Origin: Pedobacter sp.
GTDB taxonomy: Bacteria; Bacteroidota; Bacteroidia; Sphingobacteriales; Sphingobacteriaceae
DNA: 34,845 nt
Direction: 5' to 3'
Assembly: GCA_014377665.1 (NCBI GenBank)
Contig: JACMPF010000217.1
Location: forward strand, 1 to 34,845
Below the pieces are notes generated by a model, which ran no database searches, had not been told where the DNA came from, and saw nothing but the letters and a program-made list of their open reading frames with translations. Within the stretch, counting starts at the first letter, position 1, and each line of letters opens with the position of its first letter. Position numbers and translations under genes: made by a program. Below, piece by piece: positions 14,803-23,873 of the stretch.

Positions 14803-15780
14803 TTGCAACCTAAAAAGAAAGCAATACTTCTGTCATTGTGTGTTAGCATTTTGCTAATGCTGGCGAAATTTGTAGCCTATTTCATCACACAATCAAATGC
14901 AATCCTTACCGATGCTTTAGAAAGTATTGTAAACGTTTTGGCCAGCGGTTTTGCATTCTACAGCATATATCTTGCGACATTGCCAAAAGACACAAATCAT
15001 CCCTATGGCCATGGTAAAGTGGAATTTTTCTCAGCTTTTCTTGAAGGAGCGCTTATTAGTATCGCAGGAGTCATAATTATTTTTAAATCGGGCTATGATC
15101 TCGTCTTCTTCAAGCCAATATTTCAACTTTTTCAGGGTGCAATTATAATTGGAGCCACTGGTGTTGTTAACCTTTTAGTTGGTTATTACCTGATAAGTAT
15201 AGGAAAGCAACATCGATCCATTACGCTAGAAGCAGATGGAAAGCATTTGCTAACGGATGCAATAACAAGTGCCGGTCTGGTGATAGGTGTTCTATTAATC
15301 CAGCTAACACAAATATTTTGGCTTGATAGTTTGATTTCGATAATACTAGGATTCTATATTATTTATAATGGATACCTGCTTACCAGACGATCAGTTGGTG
15401 GATTAATGGATGAGAGTAATACAGAATTAGTAAAAGATATCATATCCATTTTACAAAAATACAGGCGTGATCCCTGGGTTGATATTCATAATCTTAGAGC
15501 ACAGCAATACGGCGCTGACCTCCATATAGACTGTCATGTTACAATGCCATATTACTATAATCTCAATCAGGTGCATCAAGAAATTTCTGATCTGGATAGA
15601 ATTATCAATGGTGAAGCTACACACAAAACTGAGCTTTTTATACATACTGACCCATGCTTACCGGATTGTTGTAATTACTGTAAAATGCAAAACTGTGCAG
15701 TCAGGGTTCATCCTTTTATTCAGGAGATTGAATGGACTATTAACAATGCCACCAAGAACCAAAAACATTTTGACCAATGA
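14803..15780 (+). CDS. Cation diffusion facilitator family transporter
   Basis: CDF proteins export Zn, Fe, Mn or similar divalent ions from the cytoplasm by proton exchange. The 325-residue protein has several membrane helices in its first 205 residues or so. The metal-site helices include ILTDALESIVN and LLTDAITSAG, and the conserved YGHGKVEFFSA lies between. The cytoplasmic C-terminal domain begins near residue 215 with HIDCHVTMPYY. It ends with an unusual Cys cluster, CLPDCCNYCKMQNC. The start is TTG 14803: no upstream ATG fits, and the next in-frame ATG would cut away most of the first membrane helix. Its stop overlaps the Nudix gene by 4 bases. The transported ion cannot be read from the sequence. 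Confidence 0.93.
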   Translation: MQPKKKAILLSLCVSILLMLAKFVAYFITQSNAILTDALESIVNVLASGFAFYSIYLATLPKDTNHPYGHGKVEFFSAFLEGALISIAGVIIIFKSGYDLVFFKPIFQLFQGAIIIGATGVVNLLVGYYLISIGKQHRSITLEADGKHLLTDAITSAGLVIGVLLIQLTQIFWLDSLISIILGFYIIYNGYLLTRRSVGGLMDESNTELVKDIISILQKYRRDPWVDIHNLRAQQYGADLHIDCHVTMPYYYNLNQVHQEISDLDRIINGEATHKTELFIHTDPCLPDCCNYCKMQNCAVRVHPFIQEIEWTINNATKNQKHFDQ

Positions 15781-16217
15781 GCTATTTTAATGTAAGAGTA
15801 TATGGAGTCCTGATAAACCACGATAATCAAGTGCTGATTTCAGATGAGCAGTCTGGCGGCAGAACTTTCAGTAAATTTCCAGGCGGCGGACTTGAGTTGG
15901 GCGAAGGCTTAATTGAAGCACTCAAAAGAGAATTTATGGAAGAATGTAACGCGGAAATTGAAGTAGTAAGCCATTTTTATACTACGGACTTTTACGAGCA
16001 GTCCTCTTTCAATGATAGTCAGATTTTAAGCATCTACTATCTTGTTAAAGAATCAAAACCGCTTGTTTTAACATTTAAAACTACGGCTTTTGATTTCGAT
16101 GCAGATTCTCTCCAGTCCTTCAGATGGGTAAGCTTGTCTGAGTTAAAAGCTGAAGATGTAACTTTTCGTACTGATAAAACTGTTATTGAGCTATTATTGA
16201 AACAAATTGATTTATGA
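15777..16217 (+). CDS. Nudix hydrolase
   Basis: Nudix enzymes hydrolyse nucleoside diphosphates linked to another moiety. The 146-residue protein has a single Nudix domain. The signature GX5EX7REUXEEXGU is seen at 37-59 as GGLELGEG...LKREFMEECNAE, with Cys in place of the usual second Gly but all metal-binding acids kept. The opening FNVRVYGVLINHDNQVLI forms the first strands of the fold. The gene overlaps both the CDF gene and bioA by 4 bases each, so it sits inside a coupled operon. The substrate is unknown. A role linked to BioA (S-adenosylmethionine or nucleotide by-products) is speculation. Confidence 0.92.
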   Translation: MSYFNVRVYGVLINHDNQVLISDEQSGGRTFSKFPGGGLELGEGLIEALKREFMEECNAEIEVVSHFYTTDFYEQSSFNDSQILSIYYLVKESKPLVLTFKTTAFDFDADSLQSFRWVSLSELKAEDVTFRTDKTVIELLLKQIDL

Positions 16218-17482
16218 CATTAGCTGAGAGAGATAAAGCGGTTATTTGGCATCCCTACACGCAAATGAAAGGTGCGCTGCCTAATATTCCGATAGTGAGA
16301 GGCGAGGGCGCGCATTTGTTCGATCAAGATGGCAAGAAATATATAGATGCTGTTTCTAGTTGGTGGGTAAATATTCATGGACATGCGCACCCCTATATCG
16401 CAGAAAAAGTTGCTGAGCAGTTAAGGGTTTTAGAGCATGTGATTTTTGCGGGTTTCACACATGAACCTGCAGTGTTGCTTGCAGAAAGGTTGTTGCCGTT
16501 GCTGCCAGGAAAACAAGAGAAGGTATTTTACAGCGATAATGGGTCCACCGCAGTTGAAGTCGCCATCAAGATGTGTTTGCAGTTTTGGGTTAATACTACG
16601 GCTGCTCCAAGAACAAAGATCATTGCGTTTAAAGATGCCTATCATGGCGATACTTTTGGAGCGATGTCTGTAAGTGGTAGAAGTATATTTACCGACCCAT
16701 TTAAATCTTTGCTATTTGATGTAGAATTTATAGACCTCCCTAATGCTCAAAATATCGAGCAATTGAAGTCTAAGATCAATTATTTATCCAACGAAGTGGC
16801 CTGCTTCATATTCGAGCCGAGAGTTTTAGGAGCAGGTGGAATGTTGATGTATGAGGCAGAATACTTGGATCAACTTTTAAGTACTTGTCAGAATCATGGA
16901 ATCCTAACGATTGCAGACGAGGTGATGACTGGCTTTGGGCGAACAGGTACGTTCTTCTCTTGTGAAGTGCTGAACAATGAGCCTGACCTATTTTGCCTAT
17001 CCAAGGGCTTAACTGGAGGCACAATGCCACTGGGAATTACAACCTGTAACAGGAAAATATTTGAAGCGTTTCTGAGTGATGATAAGTTAAAAACTTTATA
17101 TCACGGACATTCATTTACTGCCAACCCTGTTTCAATAGCTGCCTCACTTGCTAGTCTTGATATTCTGCTCAATCCTAGAACGATTGAGAATATCCAAAGA
17201 ATTAGCGAAAAACATAGCGTGTTTGCAAGAACCATTACCGGGCATCCCAAACTAAAAGATGTTAGGCAAACAGGTACTATTCTGGCAATGGAATGGGAAA
17301 CTGGAGGCAACACATCCTATTTAAGTGAATTAAGAAATAATTTATATTTGTTCTTCTTAGAGAGGGGAATAATTTTGCGCCCATTAGGTAACATCCTTTA
17401 CATTTTGCCACCTTATGTGATTAGTAATCAGGATCTCGACTATATTTACGAAACGATTCATCAAGCTTTAAAAGATTTATAA
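16214..17482 (+). CDS. bioA: Adenosylmethionine-8-amino-7-oxononanoate aminotransferase
   Basis: BioA converts KAPA to DAPA in biotin synthesis, using SAM as the amino donor and PLP as cofactor. The 422-residue class III aminotransferase has the BioA-specific opening WHPYTQM (12-18) and SSWWVNIHGHAHP (48-60). The aromatic Y15, W50 and W51 are the substrate-pocket residues by comparison with E. coli. D235 lies in IADEVMTGFGRTG and the PLP lysine K264 in LSKGLTGG. YHGHSFTANP follows. It overlaps the Nudix stop by 4 bases, and the diiron gene follows after 1 base. The other bio genes are not in the window. Confidence 0.96.
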   Translation: MTLAERDKAVIWHPYTQMKGALPNIPIVRGEGAHLFDQDGKKYIDAVSSWWVNIHGHAHPYIAEKVAEQLRVLEHVIFAGFTHEPAVLLAERLLPLLPGKQEKVFYSDNGSTAVEVAIKMCLQFWVNTTAAPRTKIIAFKDAYHGDTFGAMSVSGRSIFTDPFKSLLFDVEFIDLPNAQNIEQLKSKINYLSNEVACFIFEPRVLGAGGMLMYEAEYLDQLLSTCQNHGILTIADEVMTGFGRTGTFFSCEVLNNEPDLFCLSKGLTGGTMPLGITTCNRKIFEAFLSDDKLKTLYHGHSFTANPVSIAASLASLDILLNPRTIENIQRISEKHSVFARTITGHPKLKDVRQTGTILAMEWETGGNTSYLSELRNNLYLFFLERGIILRPLGNILYILPPYVISNQDLDYIYETIHQALKDL

Positions 17483-17483
17483 T

Positions 17484-18116
17484 ATGCTACTAAAATCTAT
17501 TTTAGAAACCATTGTTAACGATAATGTATTGCATTCTAAATGGTTAAATACGCTGTCCTTTATGGAAAATGCAGGCGCAAAAAAGATTTCAGCCTCCGAA
17601 CATAAGGAAGATGTAAACCTAATCATATTGAAACATGCAGCTGAAGAGCATCGCCATGCTTACTATCTAAAAAAGCAGCTAGAGAAGTTAGAAGGTGGTT
17701 TATGCAAGACTTATAAAAGCCATGAATTACTTACGCCAAATTATACGAGATTTTATTTAAACGCTTTGGACATCGCTGTTTGCAGATATTTGAAACAAGA
17801 GTTTAGTCTATTTGGATTCGACCTAAAGTTTGCAGCTTATTTATTCGTTACGTATGCTATTGAAGTGAGGGCAGATGAACTTTATCCTGTTTATCAAGAG
17901 GTCTTGACCAAGGCCAATAGCCGTGTAACAGTTAAATCCATTATCCTGGAAGAGGAAGGGCATCTTGAAGAAATGTTAAATCAATTGAAAGCCTTTTCAA
18001 CAGATTGGGAACATCATGCGGAGATTGTTGTAAAGATTGAGCAAAAAATGTTTAACAATTGGATCAATCAACTGGAAATCGCAATTGGAACCACTTTTTC
18101 TGGAGTGATCGCGTAG
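17484..18116 (+). CDS. Ferritin-like diiron protein of unknown function, in the bioA operon
   Basis: I do not recognise a named family for this 210-residue, all-helical protein. It has a full ferritin-superfamily diiron ligand set: E28 (FMENAGAKK), E55xxH58 (AEEHRH), E127 (AIEVRADE) and E157xxH160 (EEEGHLEEM). The repeat of Glu-only and ExxH helices in order is what such oxygen-activating diiron enzymes show. There is no signal peptide, so it is cytoplasmic. It starts 1 base after the bioA stop and is the last gene of the CDF-nudix-bioA operon. Its 3' end overlaps the convergent pdeM gene by 49 bases. A part in biotin or pimeloyl metabolism is inferred from position only; an oxidase or hydroxylase role, or rubrerythrin-like peroxide handling, are alternatives. 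Confidence 0.82.
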   Translation: MLLKSILETIVNDNVLHSKWLNTLSFMENAGAKKISASEHKEDVNLIILKHAAEEHRHAYYLKKQLEKLEGGLCKTYKSHELLTPNYTRFYLNALDIAVCRYLKQEFSLFGFDLKFAAYLFVTYAIEVRADELYPVYQEVLTKANSRVTVKSIILEEEGHLEEMLNQLKAFSTDWEHHAEIVVKIEQKMFNNWINQLEIAIGTTFSGVIA

Positions 18117-18715
18117 AAACTGTCCCCTTTTTCAGGCTTCATTATGAAAAGACCTGTAAAGACGCTGAAAGCGGGTAAGATACCACAAGTTTCATTGAAG
18201 TAGAAGCAAGGGAATTTAAGTTGTTGTTTTGCCCGACCGAAAATTACTATTCCTGGGTGAATGTGACCACAAAGATTATAGTATTCATCAAATACTTTGG
18301 GTTTATTGTGTATAAATCTAAAAGGATGGCAAAGCAATTCCTTGTGGTGCACCTCAATCCCTAGTGCCACATAATCCTGCGTTTTGAGTTCATCATGGTT
18401 GCCTTTAACCAGTACTACCCTTATTTCACTGTAAGATTTCCTCCATTCTAGAAAAGCATTCGCATCACTATTAATTTTGTTGTGGAACATATCGCCGGTC
18501 ACAAGCAAAGTGAAAGGTTTGAATTCCTTTACTAGGGCTGTTAGTTTTTGAAGATCAGTTTTACCAACTGTGTCAGGCACCTGAATACCCGATTTTCTAA
18601 AGTGAGCTGATTTACCAATATGCAGATCGCTGATGATCAACATTTTTTCTCTCTCCCAATAGATTGCTCTTTCTTTACTTAAATACAATCTTTCTCCACG
18701 GCAATTAATGAACAT
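18068..18715 (-). CDS. pdeM: Ligase-associated DNA damage response endonuclease PdeM
   Basis: PdeM is a calcineurin-like metallophosphoesterase found with the ligase-associated repair genes. The 215-residue protein has the family's metal-binding motifs in order: SDLHIGK (D30, H32), TGDMFH (D75), KGNHDE (N106, H107) and CGHIHPG (H151, H153). It is the last gene of the four-gene operon. Its start overlaps the helicase 3' end by 11 bases, so translation is probably coupled. Its own 3' end overlaps the diiron gene on the other strand by 49 bases, and no terminator was seen between them. Nuclease activity is known for the family by assignment; the substrate in vivo is not. Confidence 0.92.
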   Translation of the reverse strand: MFINCRGERLYLSKERAIYWEREKMLIISDLHIGKSAHFRKSGIQVPDTVGKTDLQKLTALVKEFKPFTLLVTGDMFHNKINSDANAFLEWRKSYSEIRVVLVKGNHDELKTQDYVALGIEVHHKELLCHPFRFIHNKPKVFDEYYNLCGHIHPGIVIFGRAKQQLKFPCFYFNETCGILPAFSVFTGLFIMKPEKGDSFYAITPEKVVPIAISS

Positions 18716-21242
18716 TCTTTTTCCTCACACTTTTCTTTTCTGCTTCTGCAGTCATTCTTTCTATTCTCTGGCTCAACTCTTCAGAACTCATATTATCCCG
18801 CAAACTATCTACCTTTATTGGAAAGCAAAGCGGTGTATAACTCTCTGCTTTGACTACAATTACTTTACTTTTTTGGATTCTATGTAGTGCAGCTGCTAAT
18901 CTTGGTTCTTCTATTTGTTGATAAAAAGCTTCGTCATAAGCCTGGCGCAATAATAAGTTATGTTTATCATAATCACTGAAAACGTTGAAAAATAATGCTG
19001 CCGACGATTGAAGGTGCTTATTGGCAACATATTTACCAGGATATCCTTGAAAAACAAGCCCCGAAATACAAGCAATGTCCCTAAACTTTCTACGTGCCAT
19101 CTCCGTAGCGTTGATACTGGCGATGATGTCGTCAGAAAGGTTTTCAGGACTAAACAACTCTTTGATATTGTCTTCATCGAGCGGGAGCGGCTGTTCGCTT
19201 AACAACTCGAAACCATAATCGTTCATAGCTATGGAGAAGCTTATAGGTTTTAACCGTCCTAATCTATAGGCGATCAAAGAAGCCATTATTTCGTGAACTT
19301 GTCGTCCTTCAAAAGGATAGGCGAAGAGATGATAACCATCCCTTGTATTAATCAATTCAATCAAAAACTCATCACTTTGTGGAACATGGGATACCTTTGC
19401 TTGTCGCTCAAAGAGGGGCAAAATGAAATCGAGTTCTTCATCGTCATGCTGCTTGTCGAGCGTCTCGTTGTATTTTTTCCTCAAGATCACACCTAGATTT
19501 GCGCTTAGTGACATTCGTCCACCCATCCAACTCGGACTCATTGCAGTCTTCTGTTTGCTTTTACGAACGAGCACCATCATATCTTTAATCATTGCAAACT
19601 CCAAAACGCGCCCGGCAAGCGTAAAGCTGGTTCCGACTTTCATTTTAGCTACAAAGGATTCTTCGACCATACCAACAAATCCGCCACTAATATATTTTAC
19701 TTTAAGCATCGCATCGCTAACGATTGTACCGATGTGCAACCGGTGGCGCATTGCGATTTGCCTACTTTCCACCTTCCATAAACCATCAATCTTAGTTACC
19801 TTACTGAATTCATTATAAGCAGTTAAGCTTTCTCCACCTGTAGTAATGAATCGCATGATCCACGCCCATTCATCAGGGAGAAGTTCTCGGAACGCATGCG
19901 TCTCTTTAACTTCTATATAAATCTTTTCATCATCAAACCCATCTCCAACAGCTAAGGTGACGAGGTATTGTATTAAGGTATCGAACGCCATAACTATGGG
20001 ATCCCTACTTTCGATATTTTGCGTTCTAGCGGCTTCTTTTATAGCAGCAGCCTCTACCAGTTCAAGCGCATGAGTAGGTAGAAAGTATATTTTTGATGTT
20101 TCATATGGAGAGTGACCACTTCTGCCAGCTCGTTGTAGAAACCGCGCTACACCTTTTGGTGAACCGATTTGAACTACCGTATCAACTGGTTTAAAGTCTA
20201 CGCCTAAATCGAGTGAAGAAGTGCTAACAACCGCCTTCAAAATGCCAGAATGAATAGAGTCTTCAATCCAGTTTCTTAGCTCAAAATCAATAGATCCATG
20301 GTGAATAGCCAATTGTCCTGCCAAGTTTTCATCCTTTGCCAACAGCGTCTGGTACCATAATTCCGCCTGTCCACGGGTGTTTGTAAAAATAAGTGTTGTT
20401 TTGCTTTTATAAATAATTGGCAATAGTTTGTCTGCTAACTTATGCCCCAAGTGACCGGCCCAAGGCAACATATCGATATGGTCTGGCAGAATAGATTTGA
20501 TGACAATCTTTTTTTCTATATCAGCCTTAACGATTACCTTCAAGACATCTTCATAAGGTACAAGAACATTCAACGCTTGCTCAATATTGCCTATCGTCGC
20601 TGATATTCCCCAAATTCGGAGCAATCGTTCCGGGTGTTTTTCAAGCAACAACCCTTTTATTCTGGAGATTGCAAGTTCGGCCATAACCCCTCTTTTGCTG
20701 CCTAGCAATTCATGCCATTCATCGGCTACAATACATTGCAGGTGTTCAAAATAATTAAAAGTGCTCTTTTGTGCGAGTAACAGATGCATGCTTTCCGGGG
20801 TGATGATCAGCACTTCCGGCATCTGCTTTTTTTGTTTGAGCTTATCGTTTTGAGAGGTATCTCCGTTGCGTACTCCGACTTGCCAGTCGAGTCCCAATTG
20901 CTCACACACTTCACGCATTGCCCTGGAGAGATCTTTAGCCAGCGATCGGAGGGGAGTAATCCAGATTAATTTCAAACCAGTCTGAACCTTTGCTTTCTTA
21001 GTTGTTAATTTTCCTGGTACTACTTTAACTTTCGAAGATTCCTGAGTTGAGTTTAATTCATCGATGACAACAGCAAGGAACAAGGAGAAGGTTTTACCGA
21101 AACCTGTAGGAGCATTTACCAATCCGCTGTATCCCTCTGCATAATATTGCCAAGCATCCGTTTGAAACTTAAAGGGCTTTTTACGAGTGGTTTTAAGCCA
21201 CTTCATAACTTGCTTGTAGCCTTTGCTGGTTTCTATGCCCAT
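18705..21242 (-). CDS. Ligase-associated DEXH-box helicase (Lhr-like)
   Basis: This 845-residue superfamily 2 helicase resembles the core of Lhr, a 3'-to-5' DNA translocase. Motifs: Walker A APTGFGKT (44-51), ITPLRSL, ITPESM, the DEWH box (174-177), the SAT motif in WGISATIGN, TNTRGQAELWYQ, VSTSSLDLGVDF and the arginine finger region QRAGRSGHSP. The C-terminal half is the Lhr-type winged-helix and DEAD-associated region. A lysine-rich stretch (about 70-90, KVKVVPGKLTTKKAKVQ) sits between motifs Q/I and Ia and looks like an insertion. The start lies 1 base past the ligase stop. It works with the neighbouring ligase, exonuclease and PdeM. Confidence 0.95.
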   Translation of the reverse strand: MGIETSKGYKQVMKWLKTTRKKPFKFQTDAWQYYAEGYSGLVNAPTGFGKTFSLFLAVVIDELNSTQESSKVKVVPGKLTTKKAKVQTGLKLIWITPLRSLAKDLSRAMREVCEQLGLDWQVGVRNGDTSQNDKLKQKKQMPEVLIITPESMHLLLAQKSTFNYFEHLQCIVADEWHELLGSKRGVMAELAISRIKGLLLEKHPERLLRIWGISATIGNIEQALNVLVPYEDVLKVIVKADIEKKIVIKSILPDHIDMLPWAGHLGHKLADKLLPIIYKSKTTLIFTNTRGQAELWYQTLLAKDENLAGQLAIHHGSIDFELRNWIEDSIHSGILKAVVSTSSLDLGVDFKPVDTVVQIGSPKGVARFLQRAGRSGHSPYETSKIYFLPTHALELVEAAAIKEAARTQNIESRDPIVMAFDTLIQYLVTLAVGDGFDDEKIYIEVKETHAFRELLPDEWAWIMRFITTGGESLTAYNEFSKVTKIDGLWKVESRQIAMRHRLHIGTIVSDAMLKVKYISGGFVGMVEESFVAKMKVGTSFTLAGRVLEFAMIKDMMVLVRKSKQKTAMSPSWMGGRMSLSANLGVILRKKYNETLDKQHDDEELDFILPLFERQAKVSHVPQSDEFLIELINTRDGYHLFAYPFEGRQVHEIMASLIAYRLGRLKPISFSIAMNDYGFELLSEQPLPLDEDNIKELFSPENLSDDIIASINATEMARRKFRDIACISGLVFQGYPGKYVANKHLQSSAALFFNVFSDYDKHNLLLRQAYDEAFYQQIEEPRLAAALHRIQKSKVIVVKAESYTPLCFPIKVDSLRDNMSSEELSQRIERMTAEAEKKSVRKKNVH

Positions 21243-21243
21243 G

Positions 21244-22845
21244 TTAAGAATTCACTAAAGTTGAAGTCAATAACTGTCTAAGGTCCTCTAACGTGTTGAT
21301 TTCGTCAGCCTTTTTGTCTTTCCGCCAACGTGCAATTCTGGGAAATCTTAGCGCCAAACCCGCCTTATGTCTTTTACTTTCAGCAATGCCTTCAAAAGCG
21401 ATCTCGAATACTAATTCCGGCTTAACGGTACGCACAGGGCCAAATTTCTCTATTGCATTCTTTACCACGAATGAGTTGACTTCTTTAATTTCCTTATCAG
21501 TAAGGCCTGAATAAGCCTTTGCTATGGTAATCAACTTGTCGCCATCTCTAACTGCGAAAGTGTAGTCAGTGAAAAAGTTGGCTCGCCTGCCACTTCCTTT
21601 TTGAGCGTAAATCATCACAGTATCGACTGTATATGGGTTGATCTTCCATTTCCACCAATCCCCACGTTTCCTTCCTGCATGATAGAGTGATTGCAGGTTC
21701 TTGAGCATTATACCTTCACTGTTAATCTTGCGTGCACCTTGTCTAATCTCCGCTAGTTGCTCCCATCTATCAAAGGAAACTACAGGTGACAGTACGATTA
21801 TGTCCTTTTTTTCAATCTGGCTAATTATCTTCTCCAAAAGATTCCTACGAAAAGCCATTGTTTGCTCTCGGAGATCCTCTCCCTGATACTCAAGGATATC
21901 ATACGTATAAAATCCGATAGGAGCATCATTTAACTGCACTTTGTTGATTGTTTTTCTATTTAAACGCTGTTGTAAAATACTAAAAGCCTGAACATTTCCG
22001 TCTTTTACGGAAAGAATTTCGCCATCCAGAACTGTCCCATCCTCTAATTCGTCGACAAGAAAGTGTAGCTCCGGGAATTGTGCCGTTACCAACTCTTCTC
22101 CACGGGACCATATAAAAAGCTCGCCATTCCTTTTTACGATTTGCCCCCGGATACCATCCCATTTCCATTCAGCCTGCCATTCATTTGGTTGACCGAGTGA
22201 GGATGGTTCCATTTCCAACGCATAGGCGAGGCAAAAGGGATAAGGCCATGAACTATCAGTATTTACGTGAGCGCCACCGACCAGGTCATTATAAGTGATC
22301 TCTGTAGGTTCCCATTTACCCATGATACTGTGCATAATTTTATTTGCCTCGGTATCACTTTGCTTTGCCAATGCGTTCACAAGCATCTTATTGGATACAC
22401 CAATCCGGAAATTTCCAGATATTAATTTATTAAAGATGAAACGCTCTTGCGTTTCAAGACTGTTCCATGCATTTAAGATAAAGGCTTTTTTGTCATCTTC
22501 ATCTTTGCTATGAAGACCAGCAAGATCGTTGATCCATTCATGCAGTTTGCGATTTGTCAGATGTTCGGCAGGGGGGAGAACGAGTGCAATTGTTTCACTC
22601 AAATCTCCTACACTATGGTAACTTTCAGCGAACAGCCAATCAGGAATCCCACTCAGCTCGGTTGCCCATTGACGAATAAGGCTGGTGTTTACGGGACGCT
22701 TTGGTTTTTTGCCGGTAAACATCGCTATAACAAAAGGTTTATCAAGTTCATCTGCGTCATTGAAATAGCTGACCAACGCAGCAATTTTGTCGTTGGTCTT
22801 GTTGCTCATTTCCAACTGTTGAATCAGCTCAGTAAACCTTCTCAA
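21244..22845 (-). CDS. ATP-dependent DNA ligase, damage-response type
   Basis: This 533-residue ligase seals DNA nicks using ATP, in addition to the NAD-dependent LigA that is expected elsewhere in the genome. It has an N-terminal DNA-binding domain (about 1-200) and then the catalytic core: nucleotidyl lysine K228 in motif I, EWKWDGIRG; motif III FYTYDIL; motif IV SEGIMLKN; motif V WWKWKI. An OB domain follows, ending in FPRIARWRKDK. It is the type described as the cisplatin damage response ligase. Its start overlaps the exonuclease stop by 4 bases and the helicase follows after 1 base. Confidence 0.96.
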   Translation of the reverse strand: MRRFTELIQQLEMSNKTNDKIAALVSYFNDADELDKPFVIAMFTGKKPKRPVNTSLIRQWATELSGIPDWLFAESYHSVGDLSETIALVLPPAEHLTNRKLHEWINDLAGLHSKDEDDKKAFILNAWNSLETQERFIFNKLISGNFRIGVSNKMLVNALAKQSDTEANKIMHSIMGKWEPTEITYNDLVGGAHVNTDSSWPYPFCLAYALEMEPSSLGQPNEWQAEWKWDGIRGQIVKRNGELFIWSRGEELVTAQFPELHFLVDELEDGTVLDGEILSVKDGNVQAFSILQQRLNRKTINKVQLNDAPIGFYTYDILEYQGEDLREQTMAFRRNLLEKIISQIEKKDIIVLSPVVSFDRWEQLAEIRQGARKINSEGIMLKNLQSLYHAGRKRGDWWKWKINPYTVDTVMIYAQKGSGRRANFFTDYTFAVRDGDKLITIAKAYSGLTDKEIKEVNSFVVKNAIEKFGPVRTVKPELVFEIAFEGIAESKRHKAGLALRFPRIARWRKDKKADEINTLEDLRQLLTSTLVNS

Positions 22846-23873
22846 GATAAATCCTCCTTCACCGTCGGCTGTTCCTCAATTTTCTCATCCTCTTCTTCGT
22901 TCCCATATTGCGTTTTAACTTCTTCAGAATCTATACCAATTTCGTTTAAATATTTCGAGAAAGTAGCAGTAAAACCATGAGTTACAAAAACTTTTTCTGC
23001 TTGAGTAGCCTTAATTGCAGACAAGAGTCCGGGCCAATCTGCATGATCACTTAAGGCGAAACCGGCATCTGCACTCCGCCACCTTCTACTGGCACGTACC
23101 TGCATCCAACCGGAGCAGACACCTGTAGAACCATTTATAAGATTCTTAATCCATCTGCCCTCGGCTAAAGCCGGAGGAACGATTACAATTCCTCTTTGTA
23201 AATCATCTTTTTTAGTATCCGCCGTAATACGAATGGTTTCTGGCAAATCTACACCTGCACGAATAAATGCTTCATTTAAATTGGCGATTGAGTTATGAAC
23301 ATAAATAGAACTATAACCTTCTAGTCCTTTTAAGAGTCTTTGAGCTTTACCAAGACTGTAAGCAACCAAAACACTTGTCTTGTTTTGGTCGTGATTATTA
23401 GAGATCCATGACTTAATTTGTGAAAATATCAGGTCCTGAGGCTGCCATTTATAAATCGGGAGACCAAAAGTACTTTCTGAAACGAATGTGTGACATTTTA
23501 CTGGTTCAAAGGCTGTACTTATGCCGTCATATTCCACCTTATAATCTCCAGATACAACGCATATTTCACCTTTATATTCTAATCTTATTTGAGAAGAACC
23601 AATAACATGCCCGGCAGGAAACAAGCTTAATTTAACTCCATTTATATCTATTTGCTTGTTATATGGCAAGGTTTCGATTTTAAGATCGATTCCCAATCGC
23701 TGGTGCAATATTGGTTTTGTAAGATCATGACAGAGATAGGCCTTATTACCCCATTTTACGTGATCAGCATGACCGTGAGTAGTAACAGCCAAATCAACAG
23801 CCTGCCACGGGTCAATATAAAAATCGCCTTTTTTACAGTAAATTCCTTTGTTGGTAAACCTAAGCAAACTCAT
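22842..23873 (-). CDS. Ligase-associated MBL-fold DNA exonuclease
   Basis: This 343-residue metallo-beta-lactamase fold nuclease carries the metal motif HGHADH (H33, H35, D37, H38), AGHVIGSSQ, SGDYK, and the late ALSDHADW and VTHG, matching the beta-CASP-type family to which SNM1 and CPSF-73 belong. In the ligase-associated operons this protein is the exonuclease. It is the first gene of the set and has a -7 box 18-25 bases upstream. The acidic C-terminal tail (about 315-343, with NEEEDEKIEEQ) has no recognisable motif. Its stop overlaps the ligase start by 4 bases. Confidence 0.95.
   Translation of the reverse strand: MSLLRFTNKGIYCKKGDFYIDPWQAVDLAVTTHGHADHVKWGNKAYLCHDLTKPILHQRLGIDLKIETLPYNKQIDINGVKLSLFPAGHVIGSSQIRLEYKGEICVVSGDYKVEYDGISTAFEPVKCHTFVSESTFGLPIYKWQPQDLIFSQIKSWISNNHDQNKTSVLVAYSLGKAQRLLKGLEGYSSIYVHNSIANLNEAFIRAGVDLPETIRITADTKKDDLQRGIVIVPPALAEGRWIKNLINGSTGVCSGWMQVRASRRWRSADAGFALSDHADWPGLLSAIKATQAEKVFVTHGFTATFSKYLNEIGIDSEEVKTQYGNEEEDEKIEEQPTVKEDLS

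Follow-up and report, generated by a model that had tools for sequence, protein, structure and literature searches.

A very probable BioE-family diiron oxygenase gene following bioA in a CDF-Nudix-bioA array of Pedobacter

The locus

The stretch of DNA considered here (the window) is the whole of positions 1 to 34,845 of contig JACMPF010000217.1, from Pedobacter sp. assembly GCA_014377665.1 (genome G000 in what follows; 3.0 Mb, 80.6% complete), a length of 34,845 nucleotides. Its forward strand carries a compact array of four genes, the last of which, here called bioE, is the one of interest:

14803..15780, plus strand: CDF-family cation efflux transporter, at the start of the array (TIGR01297, 201.8 bits, cut-off 82.35)
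15777..16217, plus strand: Nudix-type hydrolase (closest in NCBIfam to mutt, at E 3e-11 and under that model's cut-off)
16214..17482, plus strand: bioA, adenosylmethionine-8-amino-7-oxononanoate transaminase (TIGR00508, 536.9 bits, cut-off 405)
17484..18116, plus strand: bioE, candidate BioE-family diiron oxygenase of 210 aa (open reading frame, conserved ligands, residue mapping, co-occurrence, model)

The spacing within this array is as the first-pass annotation had described it: the CDF/Nudix and Nudix/bioA junctions are overlaps of 4 bases each (15777-15780 and 16214-16217), and bioE, with its ATG at 17484, starts 1 base after bioA, the stop codon of which ends at 17482. A search of G000 at E 0.001 returned bioE as a single copy.

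On the opposite strand (window 18068-23873, minus strand) there is a ligase-associated DNA damage response cluster in the order PdeM, DEXH helicase, ATP-dependent ligase and exonuclease, each of the four genes exceeding an NCBIfam cut-off; the PdeM reading frame and the 3' end of bioE share 49 bases, and the cluster is found downstream of bioE in many Pedobacter loci, whether bioE is bioA-adjacent or not.

The other biotin genes of G000 lie apart from this array or are harder to pin down. The gene bioB is on a separate contig (C285:17379-18296), and no bioD was found at E 1e-10. For bioF there are three candidates, TIGR00858 matches of 265-382 bits that are all under the cut-off of 426; since even the operon BioF of locus L139, where the genes were named by NCBIfam, scores only 295 bits and likewise falls under this cut-off, TIGR00858 gives no clear answer as to bioF in G000. 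The missing bioD and sub-cut-off bioF may perhaps both be due to the incompleteness of the assembly.

Diiron ligands and family searches

The first-pass annotation had picked out six residues of the protein encoded by 17484-18116 as the ligands of a ferritin-like diiron enzyme, and all of them (E28, E55xxH58, E127 and E157xxH160) are indeed present at those positions. Their codons, with the corresponding residues of the two BioE enzymes from Elizabethkingia meningoseptica (EmBioE) and Chlamydia psittaci (CpBioE) as assigned by residue mapping, are:

17565..17567, plus strand: ligand E28 (EmBioE E26, CpBioE E41)
17646..17657, plus strand: E55xxH58 (EmBioE E53/H56, CpBioE E68/H71)
17862..17864, plus strand: ligand E127 (EmBioE E125, CpBioE E140)
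17952..17963, plus strand: E157xxH160 (EmBioE E155/H158, CpBioE E170/H173)

The set EEHEEH is invariant in 98/98 aligned sequences (the window protein included), in which the relatives are 47-84% identical to the window protein, and, judged from these sequences, its occurrence is not a matter of chance.

Family models do not name the protein: every Pfam or NCBIfam match is sub-threshold, the best in Pfam being Rubrerythrin (PF02915; E 0.0014, 19.4 bits, under the cut-off of 22.8), with further weak matches to COQ7 and an amino-acid racemase. These searches, taken up to E 10, gave no clear match to a known unrelated family: Rubrerythrin stays under its cut-off and no MiaE- or ADO-named model appears, bearing in mind that HMMER filters drop most weak matches. 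Sequence searches of solved structures, one up to E 10 and another up to E 1, returned zero matches. In a collection of named genomes, 406 stretches encode a relative of the window protein; among the best 80 of these, nearly all are titled as genera of Sphingobacteriaceae (Pedobacter, Mucilaginibacter, Hufsiella, Desertivirga and others), the closest being Pedobacter, and Elizabethkingia is absent.

BioE as described in the literature

The first-pass annotation could name no such enzyme next to bioA in the known biotin pathways, and this has been overtaken by the description of BioE in December 2025 (PMC12915131). BioE is there described as a ferritin-like diiron oxygenase that cleaves long-chain acyl-ACP or acyl-CoA between C7 and C8 to yield the pimeloyl precursor of biotin; two irons, dependence on O2 and a reductant, and formation of the pimeloyl product were shown for BioE enzymes, and BioE substitutes for BioC-BioH in E. 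coli and rescues E. coli delta-bioH. The criterion used to search for it was >40% identity over >85% of EmBioE, and the carriers listed include Sphingobacteriaceae. The same paper credits the first identification of BioE to a PNAS 2025 paper (PMC12704756), and treats the corresponding enzyme of Bacillus subtilis, BioI, as a heme cytochrome P450 of a family distinct from BioE. The earlier reading of the window gene thus stands in so far as it saw the product as a protein of diiron oxygenase type, linked to biotin and able in principle to provide a precursor of it, and fails in so far as it took the function to be undescribed (PMC12915131).

Gene neighbourhoods

Carriers of bioE were found in 33/59 genomes searched as relatives and in 7/198 genomes across the class (the window's own genome being included in each), giving 38 carrier genomes overall, of which 32 belong to the window's genus and 6 do not. 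Linkage to biotin genes, which the first-pass annotation had seen at this one locus, is found in a part of them: bioE adjoins a biotin gene in 23/38 carriers and has none adjoining in 15/38. The commonest partners are bioF (12 carriers) and bioA (10), followed by bioD (1), with bioB in none.

Three kinds of arrangement account for these adjacencies. A contiguous bioE-F-D-B-A run opened by bioE is present in 12/38 carriers (G006, G013, G014, G018, G019, G023, G024, G028, G034, G056, G075 and G111), the order having been read from gene coordinates and, for bioF of G075, which was missed at E 1e-60, from the ORF map. In 9/38 bioA lies directly upstream of bioE (G000, G002, G012, G015, G016, G022, G026, G035 and G149), the matches to both genes being partial in G035. 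Finally, G031 has bioE ahead of bioD and bioB, and G170 has it as the last gene of a bioB-F-D-A-E run. In E. meningoseptica the reported promoters are those of bioEFD and bioBA (PMC12915131), and among the window's relatives the gene is likewise found in or near bio clusters, although in the window itself it differs from EmBioE in following bioA within a CDF-Nudix-bioA array.

This array is common to many relatives. Among the best 80 of the named loci, bioA is directly upstream (within 400 bases) in 46, and CDF and Nudix genes are also present at 44 of these 46; the computed gap between bioA and bioE is exactly 1 base in 25/46 and, counting small overlaps, does not exceed 7 bases in 36/46. In 33 of the other 34 loci an E2-type acyltransferase is directly upstream of bioE instead, 32 of these being titled Pedobacter and 1 a Sphingobacteriaceae MAG. 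At L106 and at G083 (L136) bioE sits behind neither bioA nor an E2-type acyltransferase. At the 33 E2-linked loci (among L053-L090) a thioredoxin-like reading frame comes close after bioE in 25 and slightly farther on in 5; the names E2-type acyltransferase and thioredoxin-like were assigned by inspection of the sequences. The ORF maps used in this analysis omit part of L129 to L133. Some Pedobacter loci also have a reading frame of 284-292 aa inserted between the Nudix gene and bioA (L143, 4898-5752; L048, 3856-4734); at E 1e-5 NCBIfam gave no match to the L143 copy.

In a tree of 86 rows the 34 loci without adjacent bioA were clustered, requiring 3 changes against 27 in shuffles. The deep joins of this tree are unsure, with long branches and a bootstrap that had not settled, and for this reason no history is drawn from it.

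Co-occurrence with biotin genes

Adjacency aside, the presence of bioE may be compared with that of the biotin genes wherever these lie. For bioA, bioB, bioC, bioF, bioW and MocR this was done in 62 genomes, namely 38 from the genus of the window, the 6 carriers lying outside it and a further 18 genomes from outside without bioE (G180 and 17 from the list of relatives; G041, G051-G054 and the other class genomes are not among them), while bioD was counted in 44, the 38 of the genus and the 6 other carriers. Within the genus bioA (E 1e-60) is found in 32/32 carriers, bioB (over cut-off) in 31/32, and bioF (E 1e-60) and bioD (E 1e-10) each in 30/32, as against 0/6 non-carriers for every one of the four. 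The misses are confined to two genomes that are both about 81% complete, G035 (bioB, bioF and bioD) and G000 (bioF and bioD), and the bioF threshold overlooks some genuine copies, as in G075. Of the 6 non-carriers, five have a completeness of 99% or more and the sixth, G021, one of 78%. Fisher tests give p values of 4e-7 to 1e-5, in which genomes are simply counted and shared descent is ignored.

Outside the genus bioB is present in 6/6 carriers, and also in 12/18 non-carriers, so that other members of the class must use another source of pimeloyl groups. In line with the BioE reading, BioW had no match in 62/62 genomes, and in 62/62 no BioC (TIGR02072) was found over cut-off; the absence of BioC is weak evidence that offers no contrast, because the 12 bioB-bearing non-carriers are also without BioC over cut-off. 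The genomes with bioB and without bioE, BioW or any BioC over cut-off are G037, G038, G040, G042, G044, G046, G047, G048, G050, G055, G058 and G180. The ORF maps of G180, G055, G050, G047 and G044 show bioB-F-D-A runs in which no additional gene of the pathway was recognised, and in G038 (L120) there is a reading frame about 1.3 kb upstream of bioB that was named by inspection as alpha/beta-hydrolase-like.

Residue-level comparison with EmBioE and CpBioE

The comparison with the two characterised enzymes was made by placing their published residue numbers on the window protein at a fixed offset, in place of their full sequences. At an offset of -13 the CpBioE ligands E41, E68, H71, E140, E170 and H173, and at +2 the EmBioE ligands E26, E53, H56, E125, E155 and H158, fall without gaps on the six ligands of the window protein. 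Over all published functional residues the identities are 18/23 for CpBioE at -13 (next best shift 4) and 9/13 for EmBioE at +2 (next best 3), and in 20,000 composition shuffles neither figure was reached, the maxima being 10 for CpBioE and 6 for EmBioE.

The CpBioE acyl-pocket residues are identical in 9/11 cases, the misses being L40, which corresponds to M27, and L205, which corresponds to N192. The four lipid-pocket residues reported for EmBioE, L22, Y117, I124 and L131, all recur (4/4) as L24, Y119, I126 and L133, and these four positions read LYIL in 93/98 of the aligned sequences and LYII in 5/98. Several differences lie in the carrier patch: 3 of the 5 mismatches with CpBioE lie within its 6-residue carrier patch, and 4/7 of the EmBioE carrier-patch positions are changed, K46, Q88 and H91 of the EmBioE CoA patch being I48, F90 and N93 in the window protein. 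The lack of these three residues might mean that the window protein prefers ACP, and CpBioE is itself reported to be ACP-only and monomeric (PMC12915131).

Taking this residue-level family identity together with the linkage to, and co-occurrence with, biotin genes presented above, it is very probable that the window protein is BioE, the enzyme with which a number of Bacteroidota begin to make biotin and which would here produce the pimeloyl moiety by C7-C8 cleavage of an acyl chain. A rival reading is that of a BioE-family protein with drifted specificity, acting on another chain length or carrier, or oxidising some other acyl compound from which biotin can still be made. The differences in the patch (4/7 and 3/6) would fit such a drift, as would the fact that in 33 of the best 80 loci the gene has an E2-type acyltransferase, and no bio gene, directly in front of it. 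However, the six ligands and 9/11 of the CpBioE acyl-pocket residues are kept, and genomes in which the gene is displaced (e.g. G001, G004 and G029) still carry bioA, bioB, bioF and bioD, so this reading is held to be very improbable.

Some ferritin-like diiron proteins, those of the rubrerythrin type, serve as oxygen scavengers or iron donors. A role of this kind, protecting BioB or another SAM-dependent step, would make the window protein a helper of the biotin pathway, and the best Pfam match, sub-threshold as it is, is to Rubrerythrin. A scavenger would need no acyl pocket, however, while the pocket residues of the window protein match those reported as necessary in CpBioE (PMC12915131), and across the 38 carriers the gene is beside bioF, bioA or bioD but never beside bioB. 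Such a helper role is accordingly considered very unlikely, and the suggestion made at first pass that the protein protects the SAM-using step finds no support.

Predicted structure

The predicted model of the window protein (pLDDT 92.5, pTM 0.89, from an alignment of 54 rows) is a confident helical bundle, with the ligands on four long predicted helices (14-37, 46-66, 111-143 and 151-171). Its top structural neighbour is the aldehyde-deformylating-oxygenase-like 5ux1 (Z 15.8, rmsd 2.7, 175 aligned), followed by MiaE 2itb (Z 15.5, rmsd 2.7, 172 aligned) and the ‘ferritin-like’ 3ez0 (Z 15.0), after which come heme-oxygenase-like chains at Z 12-14. Foldseek alone gave no match under E 0.001, the first being AetD with a best E of 0.04. 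Helical bundles in general can give Z values this high, and because they often do so the fold match falls short of proof. The model agrees with, without proving, the ferritin-like class assigned to BioE in PMC12915131, where a comparison of BioE with cADO is also made.

That the protein is instead a MiaE-type tRNA hydroxylase or a fatty-aldehyde deformylating oxygenase merely lying near bio genes is scarcely credible: these enzymes are the best structural matches (Z 15.5-15.8), but they are 14-15% identical to the window protein over the aligned region, catalyse different reactions and have no sequence-model or PDB-sequence match to it (up to E 10, with the same caveat as to HMMER filters), and the presence or absence of the gene follows that of bioA, bioB, bioD and bioF across the window's genus.

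Regulation

A MocR-type repressor, BioL, is reported to be frequent but not obligatory beside bioE, Chlamydia being without BioL yet counted as having BioE; the published idea is that a promiscuous BioE needs BioL and an ACP-only BioE does not (PMC12915131). Among the 38 carriers a MocR-type gene lies divergently beside bioE in 13, namely the 12 genomes with the bioE-F-D-B-A run and G031, as described for BioL in the same paper, the label BioL being given here by position and type alone. These bioE-adjacent genes are 54-68% identical to that of G056, which served as query. At E 1e-60 the G056 query had no match in 18/38 carriers, G000 included, and the remaining 7/38 have MocR matches of just 39-48% identity elsewhere in the genome. 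In this respect the window genome, which is 80.6% complete and in which a diverged BioL could have escaped the G056 query, may differ from the relatives with a MocR gene beside bioE and may resemble the case of CpBioE, reported as without BioL (PMC12915131). G017 (C4:89254-90726) and G032 (C10:63639-65108) each have a MocR-type gene with 58% identity to that of G056, and at the thresholds used neither genome yielded bioA, bioB, bioD, bioF or BioE; that such genes are kept without bio genes implies that this type of regulator may have other jobs.

It could be imagined that the carrier patch tracks the adjacency of BioL. This was rejected, as position 90 holds a Q like that of EmBioE in only 3/11 of the MocR-adjacent sequences examined, 8/11 having a CpBioE-like aromatic residue there, as most other sequences do. 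The carrier patch does not therefore follow BioL, and the ACP-only idea remains a guess for the window protein.

A search for some other shared control was also made, using 15, 15 and 32 stretches upstream of bioB, of bioF(D) and of the CDF-bioA operon, respectively, in Pedobacter. The stretches were compared for 6-bp dyads without mismatch and for 9-mers in common, and no motif was frequent in all three sets, the best 9-mer being present in 20%, 20% and 31% of them; this is a weak negative, because just exact dyads and words were scanned, without a shuffle control.

These observations lead us to a tentative proposal, on balance an unlikely one though far from negligible, that part of Pedobacter and its kin form a lineage of free-living bacteria in which BioE operates in the absence of BioL. 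Their biotin genes would be scattered, with bioE either in the CDF-Nudix-bioA array or following an E2 acyltransferase, and the toxicity of BioE would be curbed by a regulator of another kind or by its acting on a smaller, ACP-only set of substrates.

Proposed mechanism

Returning to the identification as BioE, we infer that the window protein shares the activity, fold class, donor and substrate range of that family. The positions of its pocket and patch are transferred from the published CpBioE and EmBioE residues, and the reaction sequence is itself put forward as a hypothesis in PMC12915131. On this basis the helical bundle would hold two irons through E28, E55, H58, E127, E157 and H160. 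The acyl-ACP would dock at a basic patch made up of K33, K34 and R89, and its chain would enter a hydrophobic pocket lined by W20, L24, I35, L92, V122, I126, L133, Y134 and Y137, so as to be placed where the diiron centre, with electrons from a donor, may activate O2 beside C7-C8. Successive oxidations would then break the C7-C8 bond, giving pimeloyl-ACP together with a fatty acid of reduced length. The likely substrate is a C14-C18 acyl group on ACP, perhaps on CoA too, and the product pimeloyl-ACP (or pimeloyl-CoA), which BioF, BioA, BioD and BioB would convert to biotin.

Implications

The window protein is very probably an unannotated member of the known BioE family, and the CDF-Nudix-bioA-bioE arrangement in which it is encoded is common to many of its relatives. 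A function can in this way be assigned to a protein that neither Pfam nor NCBIfam names, and the probable start of biotin synthesis in these bacteria is explained. The co-occurrence counts provide independent genomic support for the view that biotin synthesis in the window's genus is entered through BioE. The carriers in which no MocR-type gene adjoins bioE offer natural material on how BioE avoids draining long-chain acyl groups, and, if the proposal of a lineage working without BioL is true, the idea that the need for BioL depends on promiscuity could be tested across close relatives.
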